A program made the translations under genes and the position numbers. The notes under the pieces were generated by a model. That model was not told the origin of the DNA, searched no databases, and saw nothing but the letters and a program-made list of their open reading frames with translations. DNA of 64,000 nucleotides from Pectobacterium versatile (lineage in GTDB: Bacteria; Pseudomonadota; Gammaproteobacteria; Enterobacterales; Enterobacteriaceae), in the NCBI RefSeq assembly GCF_020166435.1, contig NZ_JAINZP010000003.1, positions 310,001-374,000 of the forward strand. Reading direction: 5' to 3'. Every line of letters starts with the position of its first letter. Position 1 is the first letter of the stretch. Of this stretch, positions 17,359 through 30,792 are shown one piece after another.

Positions 17359-17376
17359 GTTATGTTATAACATAAC
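17359..17376. promoter_or_regulatory. Zur-like operator of the aztD-like gene
   Basis: GTTATGTTATAACATAAC is a perfect 18-bp palindrome 31 bp before ATG 17408. Its 3' 15 bases, ATGTTATAACATAAC, recur with one mismatch each at 19063-19077 and 27152-27166. The form fits the enterobacterial Zur consensus (AATGTTATA-N-TATAACATT) with few mismatches, so repression by zinc-loaded Zur is inferred. Confidence 0.75.
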
Positions 17377-17407
17377 TATAAATCACAATAACATCACGGA
17401 GAGAAAG

Positions 17408-18727
17408 ATGCAGAAAACGACAATCGCAGCGACTCTGGCGCTGTTGATGGGGGCGGGGAGTGCGAGCGTTCAGGCGCACGATCATGAGGTATTGCGCGGG
17501 CGGTTAATCTTTTCCGATCACCAGAAACCGACGCTCAGCGTGCTGGATCTGGATACCTTCAAGGTTACGCATACCTTTGACGTGGGCCGGGCGAATGCGG
17601 CGTTGGTGCCTACAGAGGATGGGCGATTCACAATCGTCAACCTTTATGATGATGCAGGCACTATCGCTTTTCTTGATACCGGCCTGACCTATGAATCGCA
17701 CGATGACCATCTGGATGTGCATAAAGGTGAACCGCGACTTCTACCGCTGCGGGTAACGGGAGACAAACCCTCACATATTACCTCGGAGAATGGCTGGGTG
17801 GCCTGGTCGTACGATGGCTTACGTCCGTGGGACGGCCCCAGCAAGCCAGAATCGGTCATGATCCGCTTGTCGGATCTGGATAGCGCGAATCCTGTTGTTG
17901 AGAAGCGCAAAAGTCCGGCACCGCAGCACGGCATCACCGCACCGTTGGGGAATAATCAGTGGCTGATTTCCGTGCCGAAAGCAGCCTATGCCAAAGGGGA
18001 TGATAAAACGGTGACATCGCGTCCTAACGGTTTTGTTGTTTATCAGCAAGACAAGGACTGGAAAGCGATAGCGGACTTTAATCAGGAGCAGGATCTCCAG
18101 CGTTCTTGTAAAGAGTTTCATGGGCACAGCGCGCTAAATCACGTCCACGTTTTTGGCTGTAACGCGAAATTATCGGATGGCGATGCGAAAAGCGACGGCG
18201 GTGTTTTGGTCGTAAAACAGCAGAGCGGGAAATGGGTATCGCATAAGCTTGCGTACCCTGACGATCGCCGTACCAGCACGCTGAAATCCGGCCTGCAAGG
18301 CACTTATGTGGTTGGTAATTACGGTGGGCTGGGTGGGCAACCGTTTAATGCTCTCATTCGCATCGATCCTCAGGCGAAAAAGCTCACGGCACAGGATACG
18401 TTTGCTATCCCAGACGCTCAGGCCGTGTGCAAATTTGAAGTCTCTGCTGATGGCAAGCGGGTCGCCAACCTGACGCCGGATGGCAAGCTGCGGTTGTATG
18501 ACGTAGCACCGAACTGGAAACAAATCGCCAGCTTTGATGCGGTTGAGCCGTTTGACTGCGCTTACGGTGCGAAAACGCCAACACCATCGCTCGCCATTGT
18601 CGGCGGCAGCGTGTACGTCAGCGATCCAGTGAATCAGCGAATTCGTGAGTTTTACCTGAACAGCGCGAAGCAGGGGTTGGATATTAAAATTGATGGCGCA
18701 CCCACCGAGTTGGCGGGTAAGCGCTAA
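17408..18727 (+). CDS. aztD: AztD-like periplasmic zinc metallochaperone
   Basis: Secreted protein of 439 aa with a signal peptide ending near SVQA, then HDHEVLRGRL: the mature N terminus carries a His-x-His zinc site as in AztD proteins. The rest reads as a beta-propeller with repeated blades (LSVLDLDTFKVTHTFDVGRA; KLRLYDVAPNWKQIASF) and conserved His-rich stretches HDDHLDVHKGE and HGHSALNHVHVFGC. AztD proteins pass zinc to an ABC-transporter binding protein in the periplasm. The usual aztABC transporter genes are absent here. I chose ATG 17408 because an earlier in-frame ATG at 17357 lies upstream of the Zur-like box. It converges with the small Cys-rich gene. Confidence 0.8.
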   Translation: MQKTTIAATLALLMGAGSASVQAHDHEVLRGRLIFSDHQKPTLSVLDLDTFKVTHTFDVGRANAALVPTEDGRFTIVNLYDDAGTIAFLDTGLTYESHDDHLDVHKGEPRLLPLRVTGDKPSHITSENGWVAWSYDGLRPWDGPSKPESVMIRLSDLDSANPVVEKRKSPAPQHGITAPLGNNQWLISVPKAAYAKGDDKTVTSRPNGFVVYQQDKDWKAIADFNQEQDLQRSCKEFHGHSALNHVHVFGCNAKLSDGDAKSDGGVLVVKQQSGKWVSHKLAYPDDRRTSTLKSGLQGTYVVGNYGGLGGQPFNALIRIDPQAKKLTAQDTFAIPDAQAVCKFEVSADGKRVANLTPDGKLRLYDVAPNWKQIASFDAVEPFDCAYGAKTPTPSLAIVGGSVYVSDPVNQRIREFYLNSAKQGLDIKIDGAPTELAGKR

Positions 18728-18751
18728 AAGCCCAATCAGGGTTGAAGTGAT

Positions 18752-18777
18752 ATGCGGGCAGGGATGCCCGCATTTTC
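18752..18777. terminator. Terminator between convergent aztD-like and small-peptide genes
   Basis: ATGCGGGCA-GGGA-TGCCCGCAT hairpin followed by TTT on the plus strand, between the two converging stops; it could serve both genes. Confidence 0.65.
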
Positions 18778-18796
18778 GATGCCAAAGGTGCGATGC

Positions 18797-19036
18797 TTAG
18801 CGACCCACGAGCCGCAGCTGAGTACAAAATGGGCAACCACAGCCATTAACAGAGGTCGCATCGCACTGACCGGGGTGAATGGTTTCCAGTCCCATTGGCG
18901 TAAAGCCAGAGAAAGTGCGCTTGGCCTCATCGATATTACGTAACCCAGCATCATCGGACTGGGCTATCTTCGCCTGAAAAGCGGAAGCTTGTGCTGCCAC
19001 CAGGGAAAGAAACAGAACTGACAGACCTTTTTTCAT
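18797..19036 (-). CDS. Secreted Cys-rich small protein, Zur-motif controlled
   Basis: Complete 79-aa frame starting at ATG 19036 (MKKGLSVLFLSLVAAQASA is a textbook signal peptide). The mature part is about 60 aa and ends in a cluster of four cysteines, GQCDATSVNGCGCPFCTQL, with two histidines nowhere near the N terminus of the protein but one at HPGQC just before the cluster. I do not recognise the family. The Zur-like motif ATGTTATAACATAAC (one mismatch) lies 27 bp before the start, and the gene converges on the aztD-like gene, so a periplasmic zinc-binding or zinc-delivery role is inferred. The cysteines could also form disulfides. Confidence 0.75.
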   Translation of the reverse strand: MKKGLSVLFLSLVAAQASAFQAKIAQSDDAGLRNIDEAKRTFSGFTPMGLETIHPGQCDATSVNGCGCPFCTQLRLVGR

Positions 19037-19062
19037 TGGGCACATCCGCTATGGAATTTGGT

Positions 19063-19077
19063 CTGTTATAACATAAC
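19063..19077. promoter_or_regulatory. Zur-like operator of the small secreted protein gene
   Basis: CTGTTATAACATAAC differs at one base from the motif at the aztD-like promoter (17362-17376) and lies 27 bp upstream of ATG 19036. Confidence 0.7.
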
Positions 19078-19143
19078 GTATTTAGTCGCGCCAGAGCAGC
19101 CGACCGCCTGAATAGGGTCGGCTGTCTGAACAACGCCGTTCGA

Positions 19144-20604
19144 TTAACGGAACGGTGGCTCGTTAAAGGTGCGCAGCTTACGTGAGTGCAGCTTGTCGCT
19201 TTCCGCCCGCAGCAGATCGATGGCACAGATGCCAATCTGCAAATGCTCTGAAATCGCCCCTTCATAGAAACGGTTCGCCTGTCCCGGCAGCTTGATTTCA
19301 CCGTGCAACGGCTTGTCCGAGACGCACAGCAGCGTGCCGTAAGGTACGCGGAAGCGATACCCCTGTGCGGCAATCGTCGCACTTTCCATATCTACCGCCA
19401 CGGCGCGACTGAGGTTAAACCGCAGGGCAGAGGCCGCATAGCGTAGCTCCCAGTTGCGATCATCGGTGGTCACAACCGTGCCAGTACGCAGGCGCTGTTT
19501 AACTTCTTCCCCCGGCATCCCGCTGACCATCTTGGTCGCGTCGTACAGCGCGCGCTGCACCTCGGCGATGCTGGGAATCGGGATATCCGGCGGCAGCACG
19601 GCGTCCAGTACGTGGTCGTCACGCAGGTAAGCGTGCGCCAGCACGTAATCGCCAATGGACTGGCTTTCGCGCAGGCCGCCGCAGTGGCCGATCATCAGCC
19701 AGGCATGCGGACGCATCACCGCGAGGTGATCGCAGATGGTTTTAGCGTTGGATGGCCCGACGCCGATGTTGACCATCGTAATCCCTTTACCCTGACGAGG
19801 AATCAGATGATAGGCGGGCATCTGGTGGTTCTTCCAGGCCAGATCGGACACCGTCTGTTCGGGATTAGGCGTGTCGGCGGTGATATAAATCCCCCCCGCG
19901 CAGGACAGCGCCTCATACGGGCTATCGGGATCGGCAATTTGCGCACAGGCCCAGCGCACAAACTCATCGACATAGCGGGTGTAGTTGGTGAAGAGAATGA
20001 ACGGCTGAATATGTTCTACCGGCGTGCCGGTATAGTGGCGAAGTCGCGCCAGCGAGAAATCGGTACGCAGCGCGTCGAAGTGCGACAGCGGCGATGTCGT
20101 GGTGGCGTGAAACAGCCCATCTGCCGTCTCGTCCCCAATCTGCGACAGTTCTGTCGTAGGGAAATGCTTGGCGATGCCTGCGCTCATGGAACGATCAAGA
20201 ATCAGGTCGGAACCGTCGAGCACGTAGGGGAACGGGATTTCCTGCTGCGACGGGCTGACCTCGATGGTGACGTCATAATCCCCTTCCAGCAGCGCCAACT
20301 GTTCCGCCAGATAAGCACGCAAAAATGCCGGACGGGTAACGGTAGTGGAGTAGCTGCCGGGATGAGTAAAACGCCCATAGGCGCGATGGCGGGGATGACC
20401 GGTCGAATTGCCACTCCAACTGACGCGTAAGGCTGGGTAGGCAAATAGTCCTGCTGCACGCGCGGTGGCATCGGGCAGTGTGCCATCATTGATGAAGTCA
20501 CTGATGGCGTCGCGCAGCGCTGAGACGGCGTCATCATACAGCGCTTCCAGTTTATCCAGAGTCTGAGTGACGGTAAGACTGACGTGGGATCCGCTGTTAT
20601 GCAT
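19144..20604 (-). CDS. amn: AMP nucleosidase
   Basis: Cytoplasmic enzyme that splits AMP into adenine and ribose 5-phosphate. At 486 aa from ATG 20604 it matches E. coli Amn closely over its whole length (LTLDRSMSAG-type segment, HYTGTPVEH, IGVGPSNAKTICDHLAV, MIGHCGGLRESQ, DMESATIAAQGYRFRVPYGT) and ends identically in LRTFNEPPFR. GGAG precedes the chosen ATG; the open frame extends upstream to 21135 but that part only shadows the permease gene. It is a housekeeping gene lying within the zinc-related block. A GC-rich hairpin at 19097-19124 follows its stop. Confidence 0.95.
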   Translation of the reverse strand: MHNSGSHVSLTVTQTLDKLEALYDDAVSALRDAISDFINDGTLPDATARAAGLFAYPALRVSWSGNSTGHPRHRAYGRFTHPGSYSTTVTRPAFLRAYLAEQLALLEGDYDVTIEVSPSQQEIPFPYVLDGSDLILDRSMSAGIAKHFPTTELSQIGDETADGLFHATTTSPLSHFDALRTDFSLARLRHYTGTPVEHIQPFILFTNYTRYVDEFVRWACAQIADPDSPYEALSCAGGIYITADTPNPEQTVSDLAWKNHQMPAYHLIPRQGKGITMVNIGVGPSNAKTICDHLAVMRPHAWLMIGHCGGLRESQSIGDYVLAHAYLRDDHVLDAVLPPDIPIPSIAEVQRALYDATKMVSGMPGEEVKQRLRTGTVVTTDDRNWELRYAASALRFNLSRAVAVDMESATIAAQGYRFRVPYGTLLCVSDKPLHGEIKLPGQANRFYEGAISEHLQIGICAIDLLRAESDKLHSRKLRTFNEPPFR

Positions 20605-20683
20605 ATTCTCTCCTTTAATCACGCTCTGCACATATTCAATTCTGTACTTCGGCAGAGATTCGCTCACAGCGTAACTGAAGATG

Positions 20684-20756
20684 CACAGCCCCGCCATCGT
20701 GAAATCTGGCAGGGCTGTGAACGTGGAGAGAGACGGACGCTTAGGCGGTGTCTCTC
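20684..20756 (-). terminator. Two hairpins after the ABC transporter operon
   Basis: GAGAGAC/GTCTCTC arms at 20728-20756 and CACAGCCC/GGGCTGTG arms at 20684-20719 lie between the permease stop and amn. Neither has a clear U-run, so termination strength is uncertain. Confidence 0.4.
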
Positions 20757-20762
20757 GATAGA

Positions 20763-22541
20763 TTAGTGTTTGTGGCGACTGGAGAGATTCGCTGCGCTCA
20801 CGGCCAGTATCGACAGCACGCCGAGTGCGGTAGCTGGTGCCAGCACGCCCCAGAAGGCACGTTCGATATATGGCATGCCTTCGGCTAGAACGCGTCCCCA
20901 TTCTGGCGTCGGTGGTGACGCGCCCAGACCTAAAAAGCCGAGCGATGCTAGCGCCAGCGCGATGCCCGGCAGTTTCAGCATGGCGTGACGGAAAAGCGGA
21001 CCAATCAGCGCGGGCAGAATATAGAACAGGCTGCGCCGTATTGGACCGACGCCGAGAATCGGCAACATCCGAATATAAGGGCGCGCATTGATTTCGGCGA
21101 CCAGTGCTGCCGTGTGGGCCGCGAGCGGAGCCCAACTGACGGCAATGACGGCAATCGCCGCGCCCGTTGCCGTCGGACCATTAACCGCAGCAACCAGCAG
21201 CCCGGCAATCACTGGCGGCAGAGCGTTAGTCACTTCGATAGGGCCGCTGAACAGACGCGGAAACAGCCCAACTAACAGGCCAATCGCCAGACAGGCCAGT
21301 GACACCGCCAGCGCCAGCAGACAGGTATTTAGCGTGCCGTGTGCGACGCGCGCCAATAAATCGCGCCCCATCGCGTCCGCGCCAAAAGGCAGCAGGAACG
21401 ACGGCGGTTGCAGGCGCAGAAAGGCGGAGGTATAGGGATCGCGCGGCAGGCCAGCCAGCAGCAGAAGCGCCAGCAGCAGCACGCAGATAATCGGCAGCCA
21501 GATAGCATGACGAGATGCAGGGCTACCGTGTTCTTCCGGCACCGGCATAGCGCCGCTCCGCAGCGCGCGTCCGAGAATCAGCAGTCGCACGCCGCTGGCG
21601 GCTATGCCAGCCAGCGAGGCGATGAGTAAGAGAATCAGCACGCCGACCTGCAAGGCGGGCAGATCCTGCGCGGCCGCTGCCCCCAGCGTTGCACGTCCCA
21701 GACCGGGAATCGCGAACACTTTTTCGACGGCGATAGCACCGCCGGTTAACGAAACCAGAACCAGCCCGACCAGTGGCATCACGCTGGGCAACGTGCGCTT
21801 CAGCACTGCCAGTGCGATATGACGGCGGCTTACGCCCGACACGCTCCAGGTGGTGAGCCAGTTTTCACTGAAAGTGGCGGATAGCGCGTCGGCAATAATT
21901 CGGCCAAGGTAACCGCCTGCTGGAATACCGAGCGCCAGCGATGGCAGTACCGCGTAGTGCAAGCCTAGCCAGCCATAGGGTGGGAACCACTGTAGCCAGA
22001 CGGCGCCGACGATCAGCAGAAATGACGCCAGCAGGAATTCGGGCAGTGCGGTAAACAAGGCGGCAAACAGGCCACCTGACCGATGAACCTGACCGCGTAA
22101 CCCTTGCCGAAAGGTAGGGGCGCACAGTACGGCAGCCAGCGTAAAGGCCACCAGCGCCGAAGACGCCATCAGCGTGAGCGAGACGCCCGCCGCCTGCAAC
22201 ATCCCCGGAAGAACCGGTCGACCAGAAACCCAGGAGTTACCCGCATCGCCGTGCAATAGGCCCGTCAGCCAGTTCAACAGCAGCTGCAACGGGCCTTGAT
22301 CCAGCCCAAGAGAGTGACGAATTGCGTTTAGCGTTTCTGCCGTCGCTTCCTGCTCGCCTGAACGGGCACGCAGCAGCGCCAGCGCCGGATCCTGACCGGA
22401 TAGCCACGGCAACATGCCAATCAGTACCACGATGCCCGCCAGCGTCAGCAGCCGCGAAAACAGCGGGATCAGCACGCCGTATCGCGGGCGTTGCGTCTGG
22501 TTGATGGTCGCACAGGTGCGGCAATACAGCGATTCGCTCAT
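20763..22541 (-). CDS. Fused peptide/nickel-type ABC permease (DppB-DppC fusion)
   Basis: A 592-aa inner-membrane protein that joins both permease halves of a peptide/nickel/opine importer. Residues about 20-325 are DppB-like, with LDQGPLQLLLNWLTGLLHGD, an assembly motif and EKVFAIPGLG; residues about 345-590 are DppC-like, with PFGADAMGRDLLARVAHGT and LASLGFLGLGASPPTPEWG. Such halves are normally separate genes of about 310 and 290 aa. It is the last gene of the operon that starts at 27121 behind a Zur-like box, after the binding-protein gene. Equivalent to CntB plus CntC in a metallophore system; the substrate is inferred, not proven. Confidence 0.88.
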   Translation of the reverse strand: MSESLYCRTCATINQTQRPRYGVLIPLFSRLLTLAGIVVLIGMLPWLSGQDPALALLRARSGEQEATAETLNAIRHSLGLDQGPLQLLLNWLTGLLHGDAGNSWVSGRPVLPGMLQAAGVSLTLMASSALVAFTLAAVLCAPTFRQGLRGQVHRSGGLFAALFTALPEFLLASFLLIVGAVWLQWFPPYGWLGLHYAVLPSLALGIPAGGYLGRIIADALSATFSENWLTTWSVSGVSRRHIALAVLKRTLPSVMPLVGLVLVSLTGGAIAVEKVFAIPGLGRATLGAAAAQDLPALQVGVLILLLIASLAGIAASGVRLLILGRALRSGAMPVPEEHGSPASRHAIWLPIICVLLLALLLLAGLPRDPYTSAFLRLQPPSFLLPFGADAMGRDLLARVAHGTLNTCLLALAVSLACLAIGLLVGLFPRLFSGPIEVTNALPPVIAGLLVAAVNGPTATGAAIAVIAVSWAPLAAHTAALVAEINARPYIRMLPILGVGPIRRSLFYILPALIGPLFRHAMLKLPGIALALASLGFLGLGASPPTPEWGRVLAEGMPYIERAFWGVLAPATALGVLSILAVSAANLSSRHKH

Positions 22542-22578
22542 AAACTCGTCATCTTTCTGGTTGCGGGTGCGCTATCCG

Positions 22579-24090
22579 TTACTTGGCGCTGGTGGCAATA
22601 TGCGTGGCGGCGTTAATCAGTGTGCGTTCACGCGGGTCGCGCAGTGCGTCTTTGACCTGTGCGCTTTCACCTTGAATTACGCGCTCATGCAGCATCGGGA
22701 TCGCGGCATCGCTGGCCAGGATCAGGTTTTCTGCCTGCATGATGGCCTGACGGCGTGCAACGCCCGCAGGAATCGCGGCCGCTTTTTGCAGCGCCTGATC
22801 GATTTCCGGGCGGCACAGCTGAGCGATATTGAACGACCCTTCACAGGCGAAGTCGCTGTACAGATAAGCCACCGGATCGCCGGAATCCAGTACGGTGGCG
22901 CGGGATAAAATAAAGGCATCAAACTTGCCTGCCAGCGCGTCGGACTCAATCTGCGCATACTCACGCACCACCTGTTTCACCGTAAATCCAGCGGCGGTGA
23001 GCTGCTGTGCCAGATAGACTGCGACTTCAGGCAGTTCGGCGCGATCGCTGAACGTTGCTAGCGTGATGGTGGCTCCCGCAGGTGTACCGGCTTTGACCGG
23101 ATTCGCTACCGGCTGACGCAGTTCCGCAGCCCACGGCAGCGCGGGACCTAACAGACCCTGCGCGATATCAGCACGTTTCTCATAGACGTTATCCACCAGC
23201 TGCTGGCGATTAATTGCATCGCGCACGGCAGCACGCATCGCGGGATCTTGCATCACGCCATGACGCGTATTCAGATACAGCGTATTGGTGCGGGGCATGG
23301 GGACTTCATGCACCAACGATTGATCCAGCAGCGGTGCCTGAGAAACCGGAATGGCTTCGACAATGTCTGCCGTGCCGGTACGTAATGCAGCAGCGCGTGC
23401 CGCGCCGTCGGACACAAAACTGACGTCGATACCGCTGGCCTGTGCTTTATCACCCCAATAACCGTCGAATCTATCCAACACCGCGCTGCTGGTGCCGGTG
23501 ACGGTACGCAGAACGAACGGGCCGCTTCCGGTGTTGATCGGATTGACGACGCCGTTTTTACCGTATGCCGCGGTGGAGAGAATCGCCAATTGCGGGCTGG
23601 ATAAACGCTGTGGCAGCAGTGGATCCGCTTTAGCGGTGGAGACAATGACGGCGTTATCGCCATCGGCTTTTACCGTTAACTGCACGCCGTCCAGAATGCG
23701 CGGTTTGGGGGCAGCGGTGGAGGCCACGGTGAGCGCATTCACTACGGTGGCGGCGTTTAAGGTGGTGTTATCGTGAAAATGGACGTTTGGCCGCAGTTCA
23801 AAATGCCAGGATTTATCATCGATCTGCTGCCATTTTGTCGCCAGCGCAGGCTGAGCTTCGCCGAGTTTGTCGAGCACCACCAGCGTTTCTGCCGTGCTCC
23901 AGCGCGACAGCTTAAAGGCATCATCGCTCAGCGGCGTCAGGCCGGAGCGCGGTGGCTGAAGCATTGCCAGTTTGATTCGACCGTCATGATGTGAGGTGTG
24001 GTTTTCCTCGGGCTCATTGAAGCAGCCTGAAAGCAGCAGCGTGGCTGATAGCAAGCCGGAAACGGGCCACAGGAGATTGCGCATATTCAT
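22579..24090 (-). CDS. Lipoprotein substrate-binding protein, peptide/nickel (SBP_bac_5) family
   Basis: Periplasmic solute-binding lipoprotein of 503 aa. The lipobox LLLSGC is at about residue 21, followed at once by a His-rich tether (EENHTSHHDGR). The SBP_bac_5 pattern follows: TAETLVVLDKLGEAQPALAT, LRPNVHFHDNTTLNAATVVN and a late dipeptide-type domain with LYLNTRHGVMQDPAMRAAVR. The start at 24090 follows AAGGAC by 7 nt; an in-frame ATG at 24108 overlaps the MFS gene. In position and family it corresponds to CntA/NikA. The adjacent His cluster and Zur-like operon control suggest a zinc or zinc-metallophore ligand, but peptides remain possible. Confidence 0.85.
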   Translation of the reverse strand: MNMRNLLWPVSGLLSATLLLSGCFNEPEENHTSHHDGRIKLAMLQPPRSGLTPLSDDAFKLSRWSTAETLVVLDKLGEAQPALATKWQQIDDKSWHFELRPNVHFHDNTTLNAATVVNALTVASTAAPKPRILDGVQLTVKADGDNAVIVSTAKADPLLPQRLSSPQLAILSTAAYGKNGVVNPINTGSGPFVLRTVTGTSSAVLDRFDGYWGDKAQASGIDVSFVSDGAARAAALRTGTADIVEAIPVSQAPLLDQSLVHEVPMPRTNTLYLNTRHGVMQDPAMRAAVRDAINRQQLVDNVYEKRADIAQGLLGPALPWAAELRQPVANPVKAGTPAGATITLATFSDRAELPEVAVYLAQQLTAAGFTVKQVVREYAQIESDALAGKFDAFILSRATVLDSGDPVAYLYSDFACEGSFNIAQLCRPEIDQALQKAAAIPAGVARRQAIMQAENLILASDAAIPMLHERVIQGESAQVKDALRDPRERTLINAATHIATSAK

Positions 24091-24100
24091 CAGTCTGTCC

Positions 24101-25348
24101 TTATTCATTCACGGTTGAAGCGGATTTAAACGGGCGGCAGATGACCATCATGGCCAGCGAACTGCACAGCGGCACGGCGGCGAGCAGCACCCACGGAATG
24201 GCGGCCTGTGGCGACGGCGTTAGCGCGCGATCGAGCTGGCTGCCGAGTATAAAGTTGCCGACCAGTACCGCGATGCCGCCCATCGATGCCAGCGCGCCAT
24301 AGTGCGCACCCAGGTTTTTGTTGTTGGCAAAGCGTGGGATGAGGTCCATCCCGACGGGGACGATTAACATCTGCCCCAGCGTCAGCAGCGTAATTAACGA
24401 GATAGCCGGAAGCAGGCGCTGCCACCCGTCAGGCGGCGTGCTGGAAGCAAACAGCGCGACGCTAAAGAACGACGCTGCCAGCAGCGCGAAACCCAGTGGC
24501 AGCATGCGTGCCGCGCCAACCCGGCGAGCAAAACGCGCCAGCGGAAGCTGTAACCCGATCACCAGCAGGGAGGCCAGGACAAACAGCGGGCCGAGATCTT
24601 TCTCGCTGCTGCCGGAGCGATGCAGTTCAACCGGCAGTGCCAGATAGAGCTGGTTGTAGCTGAACAGATAAGCGCTGTAGGCAATGATGAACGCGACAAA
24701 ACGGCGCTGGCGGAACGTTTCCCACCACGGGGCAATCTGTAATTCTCCCCGATTGCGCTGCGTCGGTGGCAGGCTGAAAAACAGGACGATGAGCGCGATA
24801 ACAAACACGCCCGCGCCCGCGAGCGCCACGCGCTGGAATCCGTATCCGGCCAGCACTGAGCCGAGCAACGGCCCCAGCACCGCGCCTAACTCGCCGCAAA
24901 TGGCAAACAGGGCGAACCACTCGGAGCGGCTGCGTTTTCCCTCTTTTTCACTTTGCGTACCGGCCTGTGCCATCAGTGCTTCGATGGCGGGAGAGAACAG
25001 GGCACCGCCGACGCCGGTCAGACAGGCACCGAGGATGATCGGCCACAGAGAGTCGCCTAACGCCAGCAGAAGATAGCCGCTGATACGCACGACACAGCCA
25101 CACAGAATGATCACGCGCGCGCCGAATCGGTCAGCCAGCGCGCCGCCGACTAAAAACATGCCCTGTTGAGAAAAGGTGCGTAGGCCAATCACCAGCCCGA
25201 TAGCCCAGCCGGAAAGCAGCATGTCGTCGCGCAGGAAAATCGCCAGAAACGGCACGACGGCATAAAAGCCAATATTGAAAACAAGCTGGCTACCCAGAAG
25301 TAACGGGGGATAAGGCCGTGGTGAGCGGTTGGCGGTAAGGTCTGACAT
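24101..25348 (-). CDS. MFS transporter, possible metallophore exporter
   Basis: Inner-membrane protein of 415 aa with about 12 segments and the MFS loop motif GGALADRFGARVI near 68-80, similar in layout to MdtH-type drug exporters. It sits inside the ABC importer operon between the ATPase and binding-protein genes; the latter starts 10 bp after its stop. An MFS gene in an otherwise import-type operon is also found as CntE, which exports staphylopine, so an export role for a zinc-chelating molecule is inferred. A plain drug or peptide exporter cannot be excluded. Confidence 0.82.
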   Translation of the reverse strand: MSDLTANRSPRPYPPLLLGSQLVFNIGFYAVVPFLAIFLRDDMLLSGWAIGLVIGLRTFSQQGMFLVGGALADRFGARVIILCGCVVRISGYLLLALGDSLWPIILGACLTGVGGALFSPAIEALMAQAGTQSEKEGKRSRSEWFALFAICGELGAVLGPLLGSVLAGYGFQRVALAGAGVFVIALIVLFFSLPPTQRNRGELQIAPWWETFRQRRFVAFIIAYSAYLFSYNQLYLALPVELHRSGSSEKDLGPLFVLASLLVIGLQLPLARFARRVGAARMLPLGFALLAASFFSVALFASSTPPDGWQRLLPAISLITLLTLGQMLIVPVGMDLIPRFANNKNLGAHYGALASMGGIAVLVGNFILGSQLDRALTPSPQAAIPWVLLAAVPLCSSLAMMVICRPFKSASTVNE

Positions 25349-25433
25349 GTCATGATCCGTTATAAAAAGCCCGTTACGGGGGGAATGTGTTATTGATGCG
25401 ATATTTTATTGTAAAAAGCGCGTTTTCAGCGAG

Positions 25434-26270
25434 CTAATAGCCTGACGTCGATAGCGCGGGGACGGCCTGTAACAGATGAGCAGTGTGCGCCTGCTGCGGT
25501 GAAGCCAGCACCTCTGTCGTGGGGCGATCTTCAATAATGCGTCCGCCGTCCATGACCAGCATCCTGTCGCACAGCCCGGCGAGCATGGAAATATCGTGCG
25601 AGACCATCAGCAAGCCCATTTTGTTTTGTTCGGTGACCTGCTGAAGCAGGGCTTTAATCTGTTCGCGCAGCGGTAAATCCAGACCGCTGACGGGCTCGTC
25701 CGCCAGTAAAAATTCGGGTCGAACAATCAGCGCTCGTGCTAGCGCGACACGCTGTGCCTGTCCCCCGGAAAGCTGCCCCGCGACCTTATCCAGAAGCGTG
25801 ACGCTCAGTCCTACCTGATCCATGACTTCGTTCAGGCGGGCAGAATGATTTCCATTAGCGTGACGGTTCTCATCGGGACGGAGTCGCTTCAGCGGCTCGA
25901 TGAGGAGATCGGCGACGCGTTGATGTGGCGCGAGCGAGCCTGCCGGCTCCTGCGGAATATATTGGACGCGGCGGCGATACCAGAGCAGCGAACGTACCGA
26001 ACCGGGTTTAATCACGTTGCCGTCGCAGTACACCGCGCCACTTTCTGGCGCTTCAAGCGCGAGCAGGGTTTTTAGCAGCGTGGATTTACCACAGCCGGAA
26101 GCACCGACCAGCCCGACGCGTTCGTGCTGTTGCAGGTTTAGCGACAGGTCGTGAAAAATGGCACTGGCAGGATCGGCCTTTTGCCACGGCAAACGTGACG
26201 TCTGACGATAGCGGCTGACGTGCTCAAGGCTTAAAAACGGTGAGGGAACCGCGTGCAGGTGGTGGTTCAT
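25434..26270 (-). CDS. ABC transporter ATPase (DppF/CntF-like)
   Basis: Cytoplasmic ATPase of 278 aa for the peptide/nickel-type importer. Walker A GASGCGKST at about 57, signature LSGGQAQRVALARAL at about 165, Walker B FLLADEPVSGLD and H-loop VSHDISML are all intact. Its start overlaps the preceding ATPase stop by 4 bp (ATGA), so translation is coupled. It is shorter at the C terminus than typical DppF, lacking the long oligopeptide-specific tail. Confidence 0.88.
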   Translation of the reverse strand: MNHHLHAVPSPFLSLEHVSRYRQTSRLPWQKADPASAIFHDLSLNLQQHERVGLVGASGCGKSTLLKTLLALEAPESGAVYCDGNVIKPGSVRSLLWYRRRVQYIPQEPAGSLAPHQRVADLLIEPLKRLRPDENRHANGNHSARLNEVMDQVGLSVTLLDKVAGQLSGGQAQRVALARALIVRPEFLLADEPVSGLDLPLREQIKALLQQVTEQNKMGLLMVSHDISMLAGLCDRMLVMDGGRIIEDRPTTEVLASPQQAHTAHLLQAVPALSTSGY

Positions 26271-27121
26271 CCGGCAAGCGCTCCGGCAACAGCGGTGGGT
26301 AACACCGTGTCAGGAAAAAGATTATCAGGAAAAAGATTGTCAGATAAAAGCGTGTCGGCGCGACGTGCGGCAGCGACCAGACTGCGGGTATACGGCTGCT
26401 GTGGTGCATTCAGTAGTTGCTGCATACTGCCGGATTCAATGACTTGCCCGTTTTCCATCACCAGGCCACGCTGGCAGAGTTGGGCAGCAACGGCGATATC
26501 ATGCGTAATAAACAGCAGGGCAGGAGCATCCGGCTGCGCGCTACGTTCCTGTAAGACCTGCAATACTTGCTTCTGGGTAATGACATCGAGCGCGGTTGTC
26601 GGTTCGTCCGCCACCAGCAAGCGTGTCTTGCCGAGTAGGGCGAGGGTAATACAAATGCGCTGGCGCTGGCCGCCGGACAGTTCGGCAGGATAGCGTTGCA
26701 GGAGGTTGGGAATATCATCCAGCTTCATGGCAGCCAAAAGTGCAGAAAGCTCAGAGGAAGAGGTGGTTTTCAACGCCAGAGACAGCTGTTTTCCCAACGG
26801 CATGAGAGGATTAAGTGCCGTTGCGGAGTCCTGGAACACGGCAGAGACGCGGCTGACCTGCGGGCGCGCCAGCGCTTTCAACTGGCTGATTTCTTCGCCA
26901 TTCACCCGAATACTGCCGCTAATCTGGCAGCCCGACGGCGGTGTTCCGATGACCGCTTTTGCGGTGAGGGATTTACCGGAACCGGATGCACCGAGTAAAC
27001 AGACACGTTCACCCGCGAACAGCGTAAAGCTGATATCGCTGACCTTGGTTTCACCACCAATAGACAGGCTCAGGTTCTCTACCTGAAGAATGGCATCTGT
27101 GTGTCTGTTCCAGTTAATCAT
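26267..27121 (-). CDS. ABC transporter ATPase (DppD/CntD-like)
   Basis: First gene of the importer operon (284 aa). Walker A GASGSGKS near 40, Q-loop in VFQDSATALNP, signature LSGGQRQRICITLAL, Walker B LLVADEPTTALD and H-loop FITHDIAVAAQ are intact. Its C terminus contains an unusual repeat, LSDNLFPDNLFPDTVLP, coded by a short tandem sequence near 26308-26345. The Zur-like motif lies 30-45 bp upstream of the start, which makes the whole five-gene operon likely zinc-repressed. Confidence 0.88.
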   Translation of the reverse strand: MINWNRHTDAILQVENLSLSIGGETKVSDISFTLFAGERVCLLGASGSGKSLTAKAVIGTPPSGCQISGSIRVNGEEISQLKALARPQVSRVSAVFQDSATALNPLMPLGKQLSLALKTTSSSELSALLAAMKLDDIPNLLQRYPAELSGGQRQRICITLALLGKTRLLVADEPTTALDVITQKQVLQVLQERSAQPDAPALLFITHDIAVAAQLCQRGLVMENGQVIESGSMQQLLNAPQQPYTRSLVAAARRADTLLSDNLFPDNLFPDTVLPTAVAGALAG

Positions 27122-27151
27122 GGTTAACGTATAGGGTTAGTGTAAATCGAT

Positions 27152-27166
27152 ATGTAATAACATAAC
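27152..27166. promoter_or_regulatory. Zur-like operator of the ABC/MFS operon
   Basis: ATGTAATAACATAAC differs at one base from the motif at the aztD-like promoter and lies 30 bp upstream of the first operon start (27121). Confidence 0.7.
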
Positions 27167-28172: not shown

Positions 28173-29966
28173 TTAGCTCTGTTGCGTGGTCAGCCACTGG
28201 CGCAGGCGTTCGGGCTGCTGGGCGCCGCTTAGGCGTGCTTGTTCTTCACCGTTTTCGATCCAGATCAGGGTTGGCAGCGTCCTCACCGCCAATTTCTCCG
28301 CCAGGGCAATGTGATGATCGGCGTCCAGATAATGGCTTGGTAATTGACGGTATTCCTCATTATCCAGAATCGCTTCTAACTGGCGATAGAGGCTTTTGCA
28401 GTGGACGCAGCGCTCCGCGCCGACCAGCAGCAGCTGTGGGCCAGGTTGCGCTGCCAGTTCAGGCCAACTGTCGGTGGTGAGTGGCGCAAAACGCTCACGG
28501 TTGACGGCAAAGAGCTTCGGACTGCGCTTGAGATCTTCGCTGTCGGTCGCGACACACAGGGCATCGCCGCTCTTTTTATAAGGGCGCGTGCCGTCAATAC
28601 GAATCACGCTGGCGAAGCCGGGCGCGGCGGCTCCGGGCTGGCGTAGTTGAGTATTATCAGGGGCAATCACCGGTGTTTCCTGTGGGCGCGGCAGCTGCGG
28701 CACCCATTCATAGGGGACGCGGTAGGCGCGATACAGCATGTTGGTGTTCACCGTCTTACCCCAATAGGGGGAAATAAACTCCCAGACAATTTCATGATCG
28801 GTGGTGACTTCAAACAACCGACCATTGGCCCCTTCGTTAATCAGCGTATTGCCGTTCGGCAGGCGCTGGATATTACTGATGTACGGGCTGTAAAAACGGA
28901 AGGCGTCAGTCGGGTGCGGAATGCCCGCTTCGTAGGGTGAATAGCGCCAAACAATATCCAGCGTGACTGGGTTGATTTCCAGCACGCGGGAATAGTCACG
29001 CCAGGCGTTTTTCACCCCGTCAGCCGATGCCGGATTGGGCGCGCCGTAGCCAGCCCAGCCGCCGTTATCAAACACCAGAATATTGCCCGCGCCCGGTAAG
29101 CCTGCCGGGATCATATGCGCGTGGTGCTGGCCGATAATCCAGCCGATGTGTTTGAGCTCAGGCGTGTTGTAGTTGGGGCCAAGCTGCCAGACGATATTGC
29201 CGCTCTGTTTGTCGATGATGGCAATGATGTTGGATTCGCGCGCGTCCCAGATGATGTTATCCGGGTGGAAACGGGTATCGCCTTGATCGAACCACGGATT
29301 GGGACCGAGTGCCGACATGGAGTTGATGTGCATCCAGTCGCCCATCCCACCGCCGCTTTTGCGCAGGTTGGGATTGTTGTACAGCGCGGTTTTTGCGTCG
29401 TCATCAAAGCCGAGTTCATCGAAATGGTCGCTGCAACGCCATTCCCATAAAATATTTCCCTCCCAGTCCACTTCGATGATGGTGTCGTCGAGCAGCAGTT
29501 TGTCGCTGATCCGTTCATTATGCAGGTTGGTATGCGCCAGCAATAATGTGTTGCCGCCAATCGACTGCGGTTCCTGACCCGGTGCGTAATAGCCGACCGG
29601 ATTGCCGCTGCGCTGGTAGTCATGGTGGACGCGTGCCATCCATTCTGGCGGAAGGTCAGGATCGGTAATGTGTTCATAGCCGTTGAATTTCCAGACGACG
29701 TTGCCGTCCCAGTCGACCTGAATCAGATCGACCATGTCCTGCATGCCGTAACGTGAATCACGTTCGCCGCTGTGCCCGAGGATGTAACCGCCGGGCAGGA
29801 TTTTGTTAGGGAAGCCGTGCAGACCTTCCCACAGGCGCAGTTCGGTGCCGTTCATATCCACCAGCACCGCGCCACGTTCCAGCGCCTGAAAGACGGTGTA
29901 GCCGCCCCAGGCTTTTTCCGGGTTGTAAATCGTTGTGCCGGTCGGGTAGACGGAAGGGTGTCCCAT
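28173..29966 (-). CDS. Arylsulfotransferase (ASST) fused to thioredoxin-like domain
   Basis: A 597-aa protein. Residues about 15-420 form an ASST-type beta-propeller: VLVDMNGTELRLWEG, VDWDGNVVWKF, ARVHHDYQRSGNPVGYY, IGQHHAHMIP and LPNGNTLINEGANGR, with the His residues expected of arylsulfate sulfotransferases. Residues about 490-597 form a thioredoxin-like fold with CVHC, then a cis-Pro segment VRTLPTLIWIENGEE. No signal peptide is visible, unlike classical periplasmic ASST enzymes. It is the last gene of an operon with a sulfonate/sulfate-ester-type ABC transporter (16 bp after the ATPase), so it may release or transfer sulfate from imported aryl sulfate esters. Confidence 0.85.
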   Translation of the reverse strand: MGHPSVYPTGTTIYNPEKAWGGYTVFQALERGAVLVDMNGTELRLWEGLHGFPNKILPGGYILGHSGERDSRYGMQDMVDLIQVDWDGNVVWKFNGYEHITDPDLPPEWMARVHHDYQRSGNPVGYYAPGQEPQSIGGNTLLLAHTNLHNERISDKLLLDDTIIEVDWEGNILWEWRCSDHFDELGFDDDAKTALYNNPNLRKSGGGMGDWMHINSMSALGPNPWFDQGDTRFHPDNIIWDARESNIIAIIDKQSGNIVWQLGPNYNTPELKHIGWIIGQHHAHMIPAGLPGAGNILVFDNGGWAGYGAPNPASADGVKNAWRDYSRVLEINPVTLDIVWRYSPYEAGIPHPTDAFRFYSPYISNIQRLPNGNTLINEGANGRLFEVTTDHEIVWEFISPYWGKTVNTNMLYRAYRVPYEWVPQLPRPQETPVIAPDNTQLRQPGAAAPGFASVIRIDGTRPYKKSGDALCVATDSEDLKRSPKLFAVNRERFAPLTTDSWPELAAQPGPQLLLVGAERCVHCKSLYRQLEAILDNEEYRQLPSHYLDADHHIALAEKLAVRTLPTLIWIENGEEQARLSGAQQPERLRQWLTTQQS

Positions 29967-29982: not shown

Positions 29983-30792
29983 TTACGTGTTCAGATAAGA
30001 GGGGTCGGCAGCCGTATCGGCAGGCTGCGTCAGCAGTGCGAGCAAGTCGCTGCACTGCTGGTGAAAGGCCTGACTGTCACGCTGGCGTGGATGCGGCAGC
30101 GAAATGGTCGCAATCTGGCGGATACGTCCCGGTCGTGGTGCCAGCACGACGACGCGATCGGCGAGATAGACGGCTTCCTCGACGTCGTGAGTGACCAGCA
30201 GCGTGGTCGTGCCTTCTGCCTGATGAATGCGGCGCAGCTCCTGCTGCATCTGCTGGCGGGTCAACGCATCCAGTGCGCCAAAAGGTTCATCCAGCATCAG
30301 GATGCGTGGATTGGCGACGAGCCCGCGTGCGATAGCCACACGCTGCGCCATACCGCCGGAAAGCTGGGCGGGCAGGGCATCGGCAAAATCCTGCAAATGG
30401 ACGAGCTGAATAAAATGATCGATCAGGCGCTTCCGCTCTTTGCTATCGATGGCTTCATTCGCCAGTCCAAGTGCGATGTTTTGCCGCACCGTCAGCCACG
30501 GAAACAGGCGCGGTTCCTGAAACACCATGCCACGCTCACGCCCGATGCCGCGCACGGTTTTTCCTTCAACCAGCACGCGTCCCTGATAGTCGTTGTCCAA
30601 CCCGACCAGCATACGCAACAGCGTGGATTTGCCGCAGCCGCTGCTGCCGACAATCGCCACCAGTTCACCGCTGTGAATCGACAGTGAAAAATCATCGATT
30701 ACCGTCAACGACTCGCCCTGTACACGAAACTGTTTACGCAGCTGATCGAACTGTACGACTGGCGGTGATACCTCAAGGGTTGTGGACGTCAT
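29983..30792 (-). CDS. atsC: AtsC/SsuB-like ABC transporter ATPase
   Basis: Cytoplasmic ATPase (269 aa) of the nitrate/sulfonate/taurine importer family. Walker A GSSGCGKST at about 52, Q-loop MVFQEPRLFPWLTV, signature LSGGMAQRVAIARGL, Walker B LMLDEPFGALD and H-loop VTHDVEEAV are intact. Its start overlaps the permease stop by 4 bp. The 'EPFGALDALTR' form is typical of Ssu/Tau/Ats ATPases. It probably energises uptake of an organosulfur compound; the ats symbol is by analogy with the Pseudomonas putida sulfate-ester system and is less certain than the family. Confidence 0.85.
   Translation of the reverse strand: MTSTTLEVSPPVVQFDQLRKQFRVQGESLTVIDDFSLSIHSGELVAIVGSSGCGKSTLLRMLVGLDNDYQGRVLVEGKTVRGIGRERGMVFQEPRLFPWLTVRQNIALGLANEAIDSKERKRLIDHFIQLVHLQDFADALPAQLSGGMAQRVAIARGLVANPRILMLDEPFGALDALTRQQMQQELRRIHQAEGTTTLLVTHDVEEAVYLADRVVVLAPRPGRIRQIATISLPHPRQRDSQAFHQQCSDLLALLTQPADTAADPSYLNT

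Follow-up and report, generated by a model that had tools for sequence, protein, structure and literature searches.

A predicted Zur-controlled locus of Pectobacterium versatile with an AztD-like zinc chaperone, a small secreted cysteine-rich protein and a family-5 importer operon that includes an exporter gene

What is controlled by three near-identical Zur-type boxes that lie close together in the genome (4.83 Mb) of Pectobacterium versatile? The boxes were found in a stretch of 64,000 nucleotides (contig NZ_JAINZP010000003.1, positions 310,001 to 374,000), here termed the window, where they precede (i) aztD, for a putative periplasmic zinc chaperone; (ii) a gene for a secreted cysteine-rich (Cys-rich) protein of 79 residues; and (iii) a five-gene operon for a family-5 ATP-binding cassette (ABC) importer and a major facilitator superfamily (MFS) exporter. 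We consider it probable that these units form a zinc-starvation locus, at which an exogenous zinc chelate would be taken up and the emptied chelator exported, with AztD and the Cys-rich protein acting alongside.

The boxes in the window exceed chance: the pattern ATGTTATAACATAAC, allowed up to three mismatches, was matched six times, corresponding to three sites read on both strands, while shuffled sequences gave a mean of 1.06 and a maximum of 4 matches and reached six in none of 100 shuffles. When scored with a matrix built from five sites outside the window, the three boxes (29.4, 24.5, and 21.3) were followed by a next-best site in the 64 kb of 9.6, ignoring shifted reads. In form, the boxes are like the Escherichia coli Zur box, GAAATGTTATA-N-TATAACATTTC, and they are similar to the 18-bp inverted-repeat Zur box quoted in the available text of PMC4219657 and to the Paracoccus Zur motifs presented in that of PMC5387054. 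An earlier note on this DNA had placed three motif copies 30-45 bp upstream of three transcription units. All three copies are present, but the spacing to the ATG is slightly shorter, at 31 bp for aztD, 23 bp for the gene of the 79-residue protein, and 27 bp for the five-gene operon. The gene content that the note had read for these units (AztD type, secreted Cys-rich protein, and transporter operon) was borne out by the open reading frames (ORFs) and the model matches. A sigma-70 promoter scan was uninformative (1 site versus 4.7 in shuffles).

The whole genome was scanned with the 18-mer as a check on the regulon proposed in the note. Nine sites were detected at two or fewer mismatches, and seven of these lie at the window units or at zinc-type loci, namely aztD, the five-gene operon, the Cys-rich gene, aztABC, the genes of a type-B L31 protein (120 bits versus a cut-off of 86) and a ZigA-like GTPase (588.5 bits versus a cut-off of 600), and a FecBCD-type transporter. 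The znuA/znuCB site has three mismatches, and the remaining two of the nine (on contigs C45 and C69) have no evident zinc gene alongside. A predicted Zur box is thus present in the promoters of all three window units, and it is kept in the orthologues of other genera; the exceptions are the importer copies of Arthrobacter (none) and Saccharothrix (weak) and the small-protein loci L197 and L211 (weak). Based on the boxes and the zinc genes that adjoin the genome-wide matches, the three units and the znuABC, aztABC, L31, ZigA-like, and FecBCD-type loci are predicted to form a Zur regulon, in line with what the note had claimed. Zinc-loaded Zur, bound to boxes 23-31 bp from the start codons, would block transcription, and derepression would follow when zinc is scarce. 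KEGG files family-5 importers under quorum sensing. In P. odoriferum, RNA sequencing of a zur deletion is described, in the text available, as yielding 72 differentially expressed genes, 56 of them up and znuABC among those raised, with enrichment for the 'ABC transporters' and 'quorum sensing' pathways (PMC10298282). The quorum-sensing enrichment fits, without proving, derepression of the five-gene operon.

Three of the genomic sites have neighbours that can be described further. The site on C45 (G000:C45:246599-246616; L017 3600) is a palindromic Zur-like sequence with two mismatches between polA- and dsbA-like genes. The FecBCD-type transporter (L012 5078-7857) carries a near-perfect box and adjoins genes that look, by eye, like metJ and rpmE; in another genus, a FecBCD-type transporter is divergent from the Cys-rich protein gene. 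Facing the ZigA-like gene across its Zur box is a gene (L014 5187-5834) for a protein of ~204 residues that has no Pfam or NCBIfam match.

Table 1. Boxes and genes of the three predicted Zur-controlled units, in window coordinates.
Feature	Position	Strand	Remarks
Zur-type box, 18 bp, GTTATGTTATAACATAAC, perfect palindrome	17359..17376	.	before aztD; matrix score 29.4, the window maximum
AztD-like periplasmic zinc chaperone, 439 aa	17408..18727	+	NCBIfam AztD 121.4 bits, below cut-off of 400
79-aa secreted Cys-rich protein, unnamed family, C-x7-C-x-C-x2-C	18797..19036	-	signal-like N-terminus; convergent with aztD
Zur-type box, 18 bp, GTTATGTTATAACAGACC read on minus strand	19060..19077	.	before Cys-rich protein gene; matrix score 21.3
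Fused double permease, NikB/Opp1B-like half and NikC/Opp2C-like half	20763..22541	-	
Family-5 substrate-binding lipoprotein	22579..24108	-	matched in all 25 Pectobacterium genomes (split into two pieces in G016)
MFS exporter	24101..25348	-	69% identical to MFS protein beside E. coli EitABC
ABC ATPase 2, NikE type	25434..26270	-	NikE 195.1 bits, below cut-off
ABC ATPase 1, NikD/CntD type	26267..27121	-	NikD 188.8 and CntD 179.5 bits, both below cut-off; end overlaps ATPase 2 start
Zur-type box, 18 bp, GTTATGTTATTACATATC read on minus strand	27149..27166	.	before five-gene operon; matrix score 24.5

The assignment of the first unit to AztD was upheld. Using phmmer, the protein matched the solved AztD structures 6cmk and 6ck1, and six of the seven zinc ligands of Paracoccus denitrificans AztD are kept, with identical residues for His99, His102, and Asp104 of site 2 and for His124, His167, and His218 of site 1. 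The C-terminal His408, kept in 68.1% of AztD homologues according to the available text of PMC6689063, has no counterpart in the window protein. AztABC is encoded at another Zur-boxed locus of the same genome, where the Azt models rank first for AztA (200.5 bits, cut-off 220), AztB (251.9, cut-off 280), and AztC (263, cut-off 350), though all are somewhat under the cut-off. AztD therefore has a likely partner, and the genes are likely to encode a split AztABCD system in which aztD stands apart from aztABC. Under zinc scarcity AztD would pick up periplasmic zinc and pass it to AztC, as P. denitrificans AztD is described to do (PMC6689063). The close aztD type was found in 7 of the 25 genomes of the genus, each time preceded by a box scoring 28.9-29.4; a further five Pectobacterium genomes have only a distant aztD relative (29-33%) and no convincing box.

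The five genes of the importer operon (27121-20763, minus strand) overlap or lie at most 85 bp apart. Their products were compared with the best 25 NCBIfam models per protein, and none of the five reached a family cut-off. For each of the four ABC proteins, the top model was of the nickel type, at scores well short of those needed for NikABCDE membership (bits/cut-off: NikA types 181.4/600 for Opp5A_nikA and 85.8/393; NikB 132.1/447; NikC 97.6/358.45; NikD 188.8/318.7; NikE 195.1/354). The scores for the Cnt family were likewise insufficient (CntA 40.7/800; CntC 46.2/440; CntD 179.5/380; CntF 177.4/385). Since the Cnt cut-offs were missed widely and the nickel models score best, the term 'Cnt-like', used for this operon by the note, is weakened as a family label. 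The importer would work most like the NikA/Cnt type, membership in either family being unsupported. Its best solved relative among binding proteins is the nickel-binding 3t66; Staphylococcus aureus NikA, E. coli NikA, and glutathione-, dipeptide-, and oligopeptide-binding proteins also match. The His cluster noted in the lipoprotein (NHTSHH) is real, but it is confined to the Pectobacterium and Samsonia rows of a 17-sequence alignment and so does not belong to the core of the protein. The plasmid copies from Klebsiella, Streptomyces, Thioclava, and Rahnella likewise encode the permease in a single gene (567-596 codons). The MFS protein was considered as MdtH and rejected (134.8 bits versus a cut-off of 469); its relative beside EitABC goes by the name EitD. 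Between the operon and the Cys-rich gene lies amn (AMP nucleosidase), which was dismissed as an operon member, as it follows the importer only in Pectobacterium, Samsonia, and one of two Brenneria loci among 23 loci. Elsewhere in the window, an arylsulfotransferase-type protein with a C-terminal thioredoxin domain is encoded at 28173-29966, adjoining an ABC ATPase gene at 29983-30792. In the proposed scheme, the NikA-type importer would take up zinc complexed with a small exogenous chelator, and the EitD-like MFS pump would send the chelator, once emptied, back out of the cell, a role proposed because MFS proteins of this kind are paired with two unrelated importers.

The importer was found to recur with its box well outside Pectobacterium. 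Among the named relatives compared, the binding protein is nearest to that of P. carotovorum DSM 30168 (99% identical); it was detected in 6 of 122 genomes outside the genus and, in a second draw, in 35 of 362 genomes and 19 of 154 genera of the host's taxonomic family. A proteobacterial-type box precedes the ABC genes in 22 of 23 named importer loci. In 21 of these, the 400 bp before the first operon gene contain a box of 16.6-25.0 (matched by 0 of 300 letter shuffles in each case), and in the 22nd (L035), where the MFS gene has moved upstream, a box of 24.5 lies just before ATPase 1. This last locus, of Enterobacter sp. BIGb0383 (L035 3944-13327), places EitABC, the MFS gene, and the Zur-boxed importer directly side by side. 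The 23rd locus, of Saccharothrix, has no proteobacterial-type box; a two-mismatch actinobacterial-type box lies between its two divergent importer copies (reached in 7 of 500 shuffles), which is weak, as six other such sites occur in 20 kb. In a sample drawn from these loci, the flanking DNA diverges across genera while the operon box stays.

A search of 72,556 plasmid records identified the importer, through relatives of its binding protein, in 521, including 479 of Klebsiella, 20 of Escherichia, 12 of Rahnella, and a few others; the Klebsiella-type operon was also found on plasmids of 19 of 5,426 E. coli genomes, several from conjugation assays. The virulence plasmid pK2044 of K. pneumoniae (L265, 33576-49087) has the same gene order, with identities of 62, 62, 73, 81, and 72%, a box of 22.3 before ATPase 1, and, 3.5 kb upstream, a gene of the Fur family for which the Zur model ranks first (84.8 bits, cut-off 167). 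Where labels are shown, the Klebsiella copies are annotated as DppA, MdtH, or generic 'ABC transporter' or MFS proteins. Plasmid boxes 21-32 bp upstream of ATPase 1 score 22.3 in Klebsiella, 24.5 in Rahnella, 24.5 in Chimaeribacter, and 26.6 in Thioclava (Alphaproteobacteria). On two Streptomyces plasmids, rpmF and a COG0523-type gene (63-65% to ZigA) lie no more than 5 kb from a four-gene importer, and the boxes there differ from the published S. coelicolor Zur box (tGaNNatSatNNtCa) by 0 and 1 mismatch (0 of 500 shuffles each); one of these importers adjoins a Fur-family gene and the other is ~8 kb from a salicylate/nonribosomal peptide synthetase (NRPS) cluster. In S. coelicolor, rpmF and coelibactin are given as Zur-repressed in the text available from PMC5472717. 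As a control, 56 distant relatives of the binding protein (23-33% identity) were examined: no COG0523 or AztD match was found in the surrounding DNA, and proteobacterial boxes of 14.3-17.8 were detected in 9 of the 56, kilobases from the binding-protein gene, one of them beside a Fur-like gene (a Paracoccus). The zinc link thus appears to belong to the close importer clade. On the Chimaeribacter plasmid (L273 5557-7184), DUF1007 and NicO genes lie directly upstream of the importer and another NicO gene lies downstream; we take the first two to resemble the ZevAB zinc system.

Members of the family of the small Cys-rich protein share a signal-like start, the residues Ala-Phe where the signal is probably cleaved, and, towards the C-terminus, C-x7-C-x-C-x2-C. 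At E ≤ 0.001, neither Pfam nor NCBIfam matched the window copy, four to eight relatives, or one E. coli copy; a match to Pfam DUF7833 (0.004) is weak and below the cut-off. The protein was matched in 16 of the 25 genomes of the genus (two truncated), in 5 of the 122 other genomes, and in 5 of 394 genomes drawn over the whole order, and a profile search detected the family in 40 of 372 genomes and 23 of 154 genera of the host's taxonomic family, the last few profile matches being doubtful (E near 1e-4). A Zur-type box was found upstream of all 16 copies parsed from 20 loci and of 26 of 28 copies parsed from 29 loci (shuffle p ≤ 0.01), the two sets overlapping and L197 and L211 providing the weak cases; because the second set was picked by its Cys pattern, the cysteine conservation within it is partly by construction. 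Around the gene outside Pectobacterium, 13 of 37 stretches of at most 12 kb hold AztABCD, a COG0523 gene, a FecBCD-type transporter, or an importer of the five-gene type, where by our own arithmetic (12 kb of 4.8 Mb) a chance neighbour is expected in ~0.25% per single-copy locus, and where a few 100% matches are self-matches, as some queries came from members. One further stretch holds hemB only. In E. coli, the gene was found at ≥99% DNA identity in 33 of 5,426 genomes. The copy of strain 1EC187 (L264), labelled 'hypothetical protein' WP_001419900.1, lies beside aztABCD in an island adjoining a tRNA-Asn, with an integrase, hemB, dihydroorotase, threonyl-tRNA ligase (thrS), and an M14 peptidase. 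The amn gene is within a few kilobases of the Cys-rich gene at four loci of other genera (L227, L239, L240, and L246), which may reflect an old gene order. The four cysteines suggest zinc binding, with periplasmic disulfides as the alternative; the protein would most likely bind zinc in the periplasm or just outside and feed one of the zinc transporters.

What chelator the importer would handle was approached through synthesis genes. The note had stated that no cntL, cntM, or cntK homologue is present, and neither PF03059 (1 of 14 controls matched) nor PF10100 was matched in the genome; the PF10100 negative is, however, weak, with 0 of 14 controls matched and 0 of 394 genomes of the order over the cut-off, and CntK was outside the search. 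That the ligand must be made elsewhere, as the note concluded, is one possibility, but a simple amino-acid zinc chelate is another. No synthesis gene is a constant neighbour of the importer, judging from a reading of the ORFs at 5 of the 23 orthologous loci and from the annotation of 8 plasmid copies. Two loci have neighbours that are unshared by the others: a salicylate/NRPS cluster near the S. clavifer copy and aspartate ammonia-lyase pieces ~6-8 kb from the Arthrobacter copy. In Saccharothrix, an MFS protein 37% identical to that of the window (L188 3779-15056) is encoded with an ATP-grasp amino-acid ligase, a cysteine-synthase-like enzyme, a family-5 type importer, a DUF364 protein (putative heavy-metal chelation), an enolase-family enzyme, and a methyltransferase, in what looks like a metallophore cluster. 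A plant-specific ligand (e.g., nicotianamine) was suggested by the occurrence of the importer in Pectobacterium, Brenneria, Lonsdalea, and Samsonia but is weakened by the Klebsiella, Thioclava, and Streptomyces copies, and a literature search on a plant ligand of the nicotianamine type found nothing relevant.

Several observations weigh against the zinc-chelate interpretation. The matrix sites were gathered with a pattern seeded on the window, so that the similarity of the boxes is not independent evidence, while the identity of the neighbouring genes is. At three or fewer mismatches, the 18-mer gave 16 forward and 17 reverse matches versus 10 and 10 for the reversed control; because this pattern barely beats its control, the Zur argument rests on the genes beside the sites of two or fewer mismatches. 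Among the 37 Cys-rich stretches, 7 are without a box of at least 15, four of these around doubtful members. The Arthrobacter importer copy (51%) has neither an upstream box nor a zinc-gene link, and the actinobacterial-type box was tried on one distant control locus only (L102), where no close match was found. No Zur box accompanies the EitABC operon of E. coli that holds the related MFS gene, where the best nearby site scores 6.1. Moreover, the MFS gene is absent from the operon in Lonsdalea, Larsenimonas, Saccharothrix, Thioclava, Chimaeribacter, and Streptomyces, and export is therefore not essential to the importer. Of the nine genomes searched for the MFS protein, the three of Lonsdalea gave no match at E 1e-30, whereas those of Larsenimonas and Saccharothrix encode a relative (53% and 44%, respectively) outside the importer operon and away from any evident synthesis cluster. 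No TonB receptor was noticed beside the best boxes of the genome, such that a zinc chelate would need porins; this suggests a complex small enough to pass them. The importer and the Cys-rich protein also occur largely apart, as the same draw of 122 genomes outside the genus has 5 with the protein, 6 with the importer, and 1 with both. In the draws at the level of the host's taxonomic family, which differ slightly from each other, at least 10 genomes have both (40 with the protein and 35 with the importer) versus ~4 expected if independent, a figure inflated by related genomes. A fixed pair of protein and importer was thus rejected: the overlap is somewhat above chance and most genomes show only one. 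Finally, the binding of Zur, the expression of these genes, and zinc as their transported cargo are all inferred from DNA and protein sequence.

The leading rival, which we regard as somewhat unlikely, is that the importer carries zinc (or else nickel or cobalt) bound simply by amino acids, for example as a bis-histidine complex, much as NikA takes in Ni-(His)2, that there is no dedicated metallophore, and that the MFS gene encodes a general efflux pump which has come along with it. The closest model of the window binding protein is Opp5A_nikA (181 bits) versus CntA (41 bits), and its best solved relative is nickel-binding and NikAs are among its matches, though so are glutathione- and dipeptide-binding proteins. 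This explanation also agrees with the absence of the MFS gene from several operons, and the fact that no TonB receptor was noticed by the best boxes would suit a complex of a size that porins admit. A dedicated role of the pump is nonetheless argued for by its relative in the EitABC operon and by its retention within the operon in Pectobacterium, Samsonia, Brenneria, Rahnella, and Klebsiella, and adjacent to it where moved (L035).

It is improbable, in our judgment, that the importer does not carry zinc and instead serves, when zinc is limiting, to salvage amino acids or short peptides, for instance so that zinc-dependent enzymes can be bypassed. Family-5 importers include peptide transporters, dipeptide- and oligopeptide-binding proteins were among the matches, and the E. 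coli island with the Cys-rich gene has bypass-like enzymes (hemB, dihydroorotase, thrS, and the M14 peptidase); however, all the ABC components (binding protein, ATPases, and permease) scored higher with nickel-type than with peptide-type models, and an exporter in the same operon would be hard to explain. Least credible of all is that the chelator is the Cys-rich protein, which would then be a secreted zincophore of peptide type, imported by the family-5 system in its zinc-loaded form or as a fragment, for although both are Zur-boxed a few kilobases apart in Pectobacterium and a Samsonia-type locus, all parsed members have the four cysteines, and genomes with both are in the kinship-inflated excess given above, ~30 of 40 protein genomes show no importer, ~25 of 35 importer genomes show no protein, and the neighbours of the Cys-rich gene elsewhere are AztABCD, COG0523, and the FecBCD-type system.

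Uptake of a zinc chelate with return of its chelator may extend beyond Pectobacterium. We put forward, tentatively and as a possibility that falls short of being probable, that the importer clade and its EitD-like pump make up a mobile, Zur-controlled system for theft of the zinc complexes of others, spread over two phyla and onto Klebsiella virulence plasmids, and that the Cys-rich protein represents a new class of enteric secreted zinc-handling microproteins working with AztABCD or the FecBCD-type system. If so, an operon on hundreds of Klebsiella plasmids would gain a zinc-scavenging role in place of its present DppA, MdtH, and 'ABC transporter' labels, and an unnamed small secreted protein with four cysteines, mostly Zur-boxed and found in 23 of 154 sampled genera, would become a new part of the enteric response to zinc starvation. 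In the literature searched (Creative Commons-licensed PMC papers), no description of the importer in enterics or of the small protein was found, and no paper joining pLVPK, zinc, ABC transporter, and Zur, none of the matches listed naming pLVPK.

Compared with known systems, the window importer shares its transporter architecture and its closest family models with the NikABCDE nickel importers (E. coli NikA and S. aureus NikA/Opp5A) but misses their model cut-offs and has a fused permease, a Zur box, and an MFS gene. CntE is an MFS exporter. The CntABCDF-CntE staphylopine system is alike in joining a family-5 importer with an MFS gene, whereas the window operon misses the Cnt cut-offs, has the fused permease, and has no synthesis genes detected (a weak negative). 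The EitABC operon of an E. coli plasmid ('siderophore ABC transporter'), in which EitA and EitC pass their cut-offs, adjoins an MFS gene whose product is 69% identical to that of the window and likewise pairs it with a chelate-type importer; it is of the FecBCD type rather than family 5 and is without a Zur box. The AztABCD system of P. denitrificans and the AztD of Citrobacter koseri, as described in the available text of PMC6689063, differ in that the window aztD is split from aztABC, is without the C-terminal His ligand, and scores under the NCBIfam cut-off; they are alike in the AztD family with its six of seven ligands and in an AztABC that is present and, in P. versatile, Zur-boxed. The nearest published system found is pden1341-1344 of P. 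denitrificans, the cluster C 'Ni/dipeptide' ABC transporter, for which the available text of PMC5387054 lists two separate permease genes, one ATPase gene, and no MFS exporter, unlike the window operon, and whose substrate is given there as unassigned. Three Paracoccus binding proteins of other species are 26-31% identical to the window protein, Pden1341 itself being outside the comparison. In common with the window importer, pden1341-1344 is a transporter of the family-5 type with a Zur motif; within a seven-gene operon that includes a COG0523 gene, it was bound by Zur in gel shift and was 12.6-16-fold up in zinc-depleted medium (PMC5387054).

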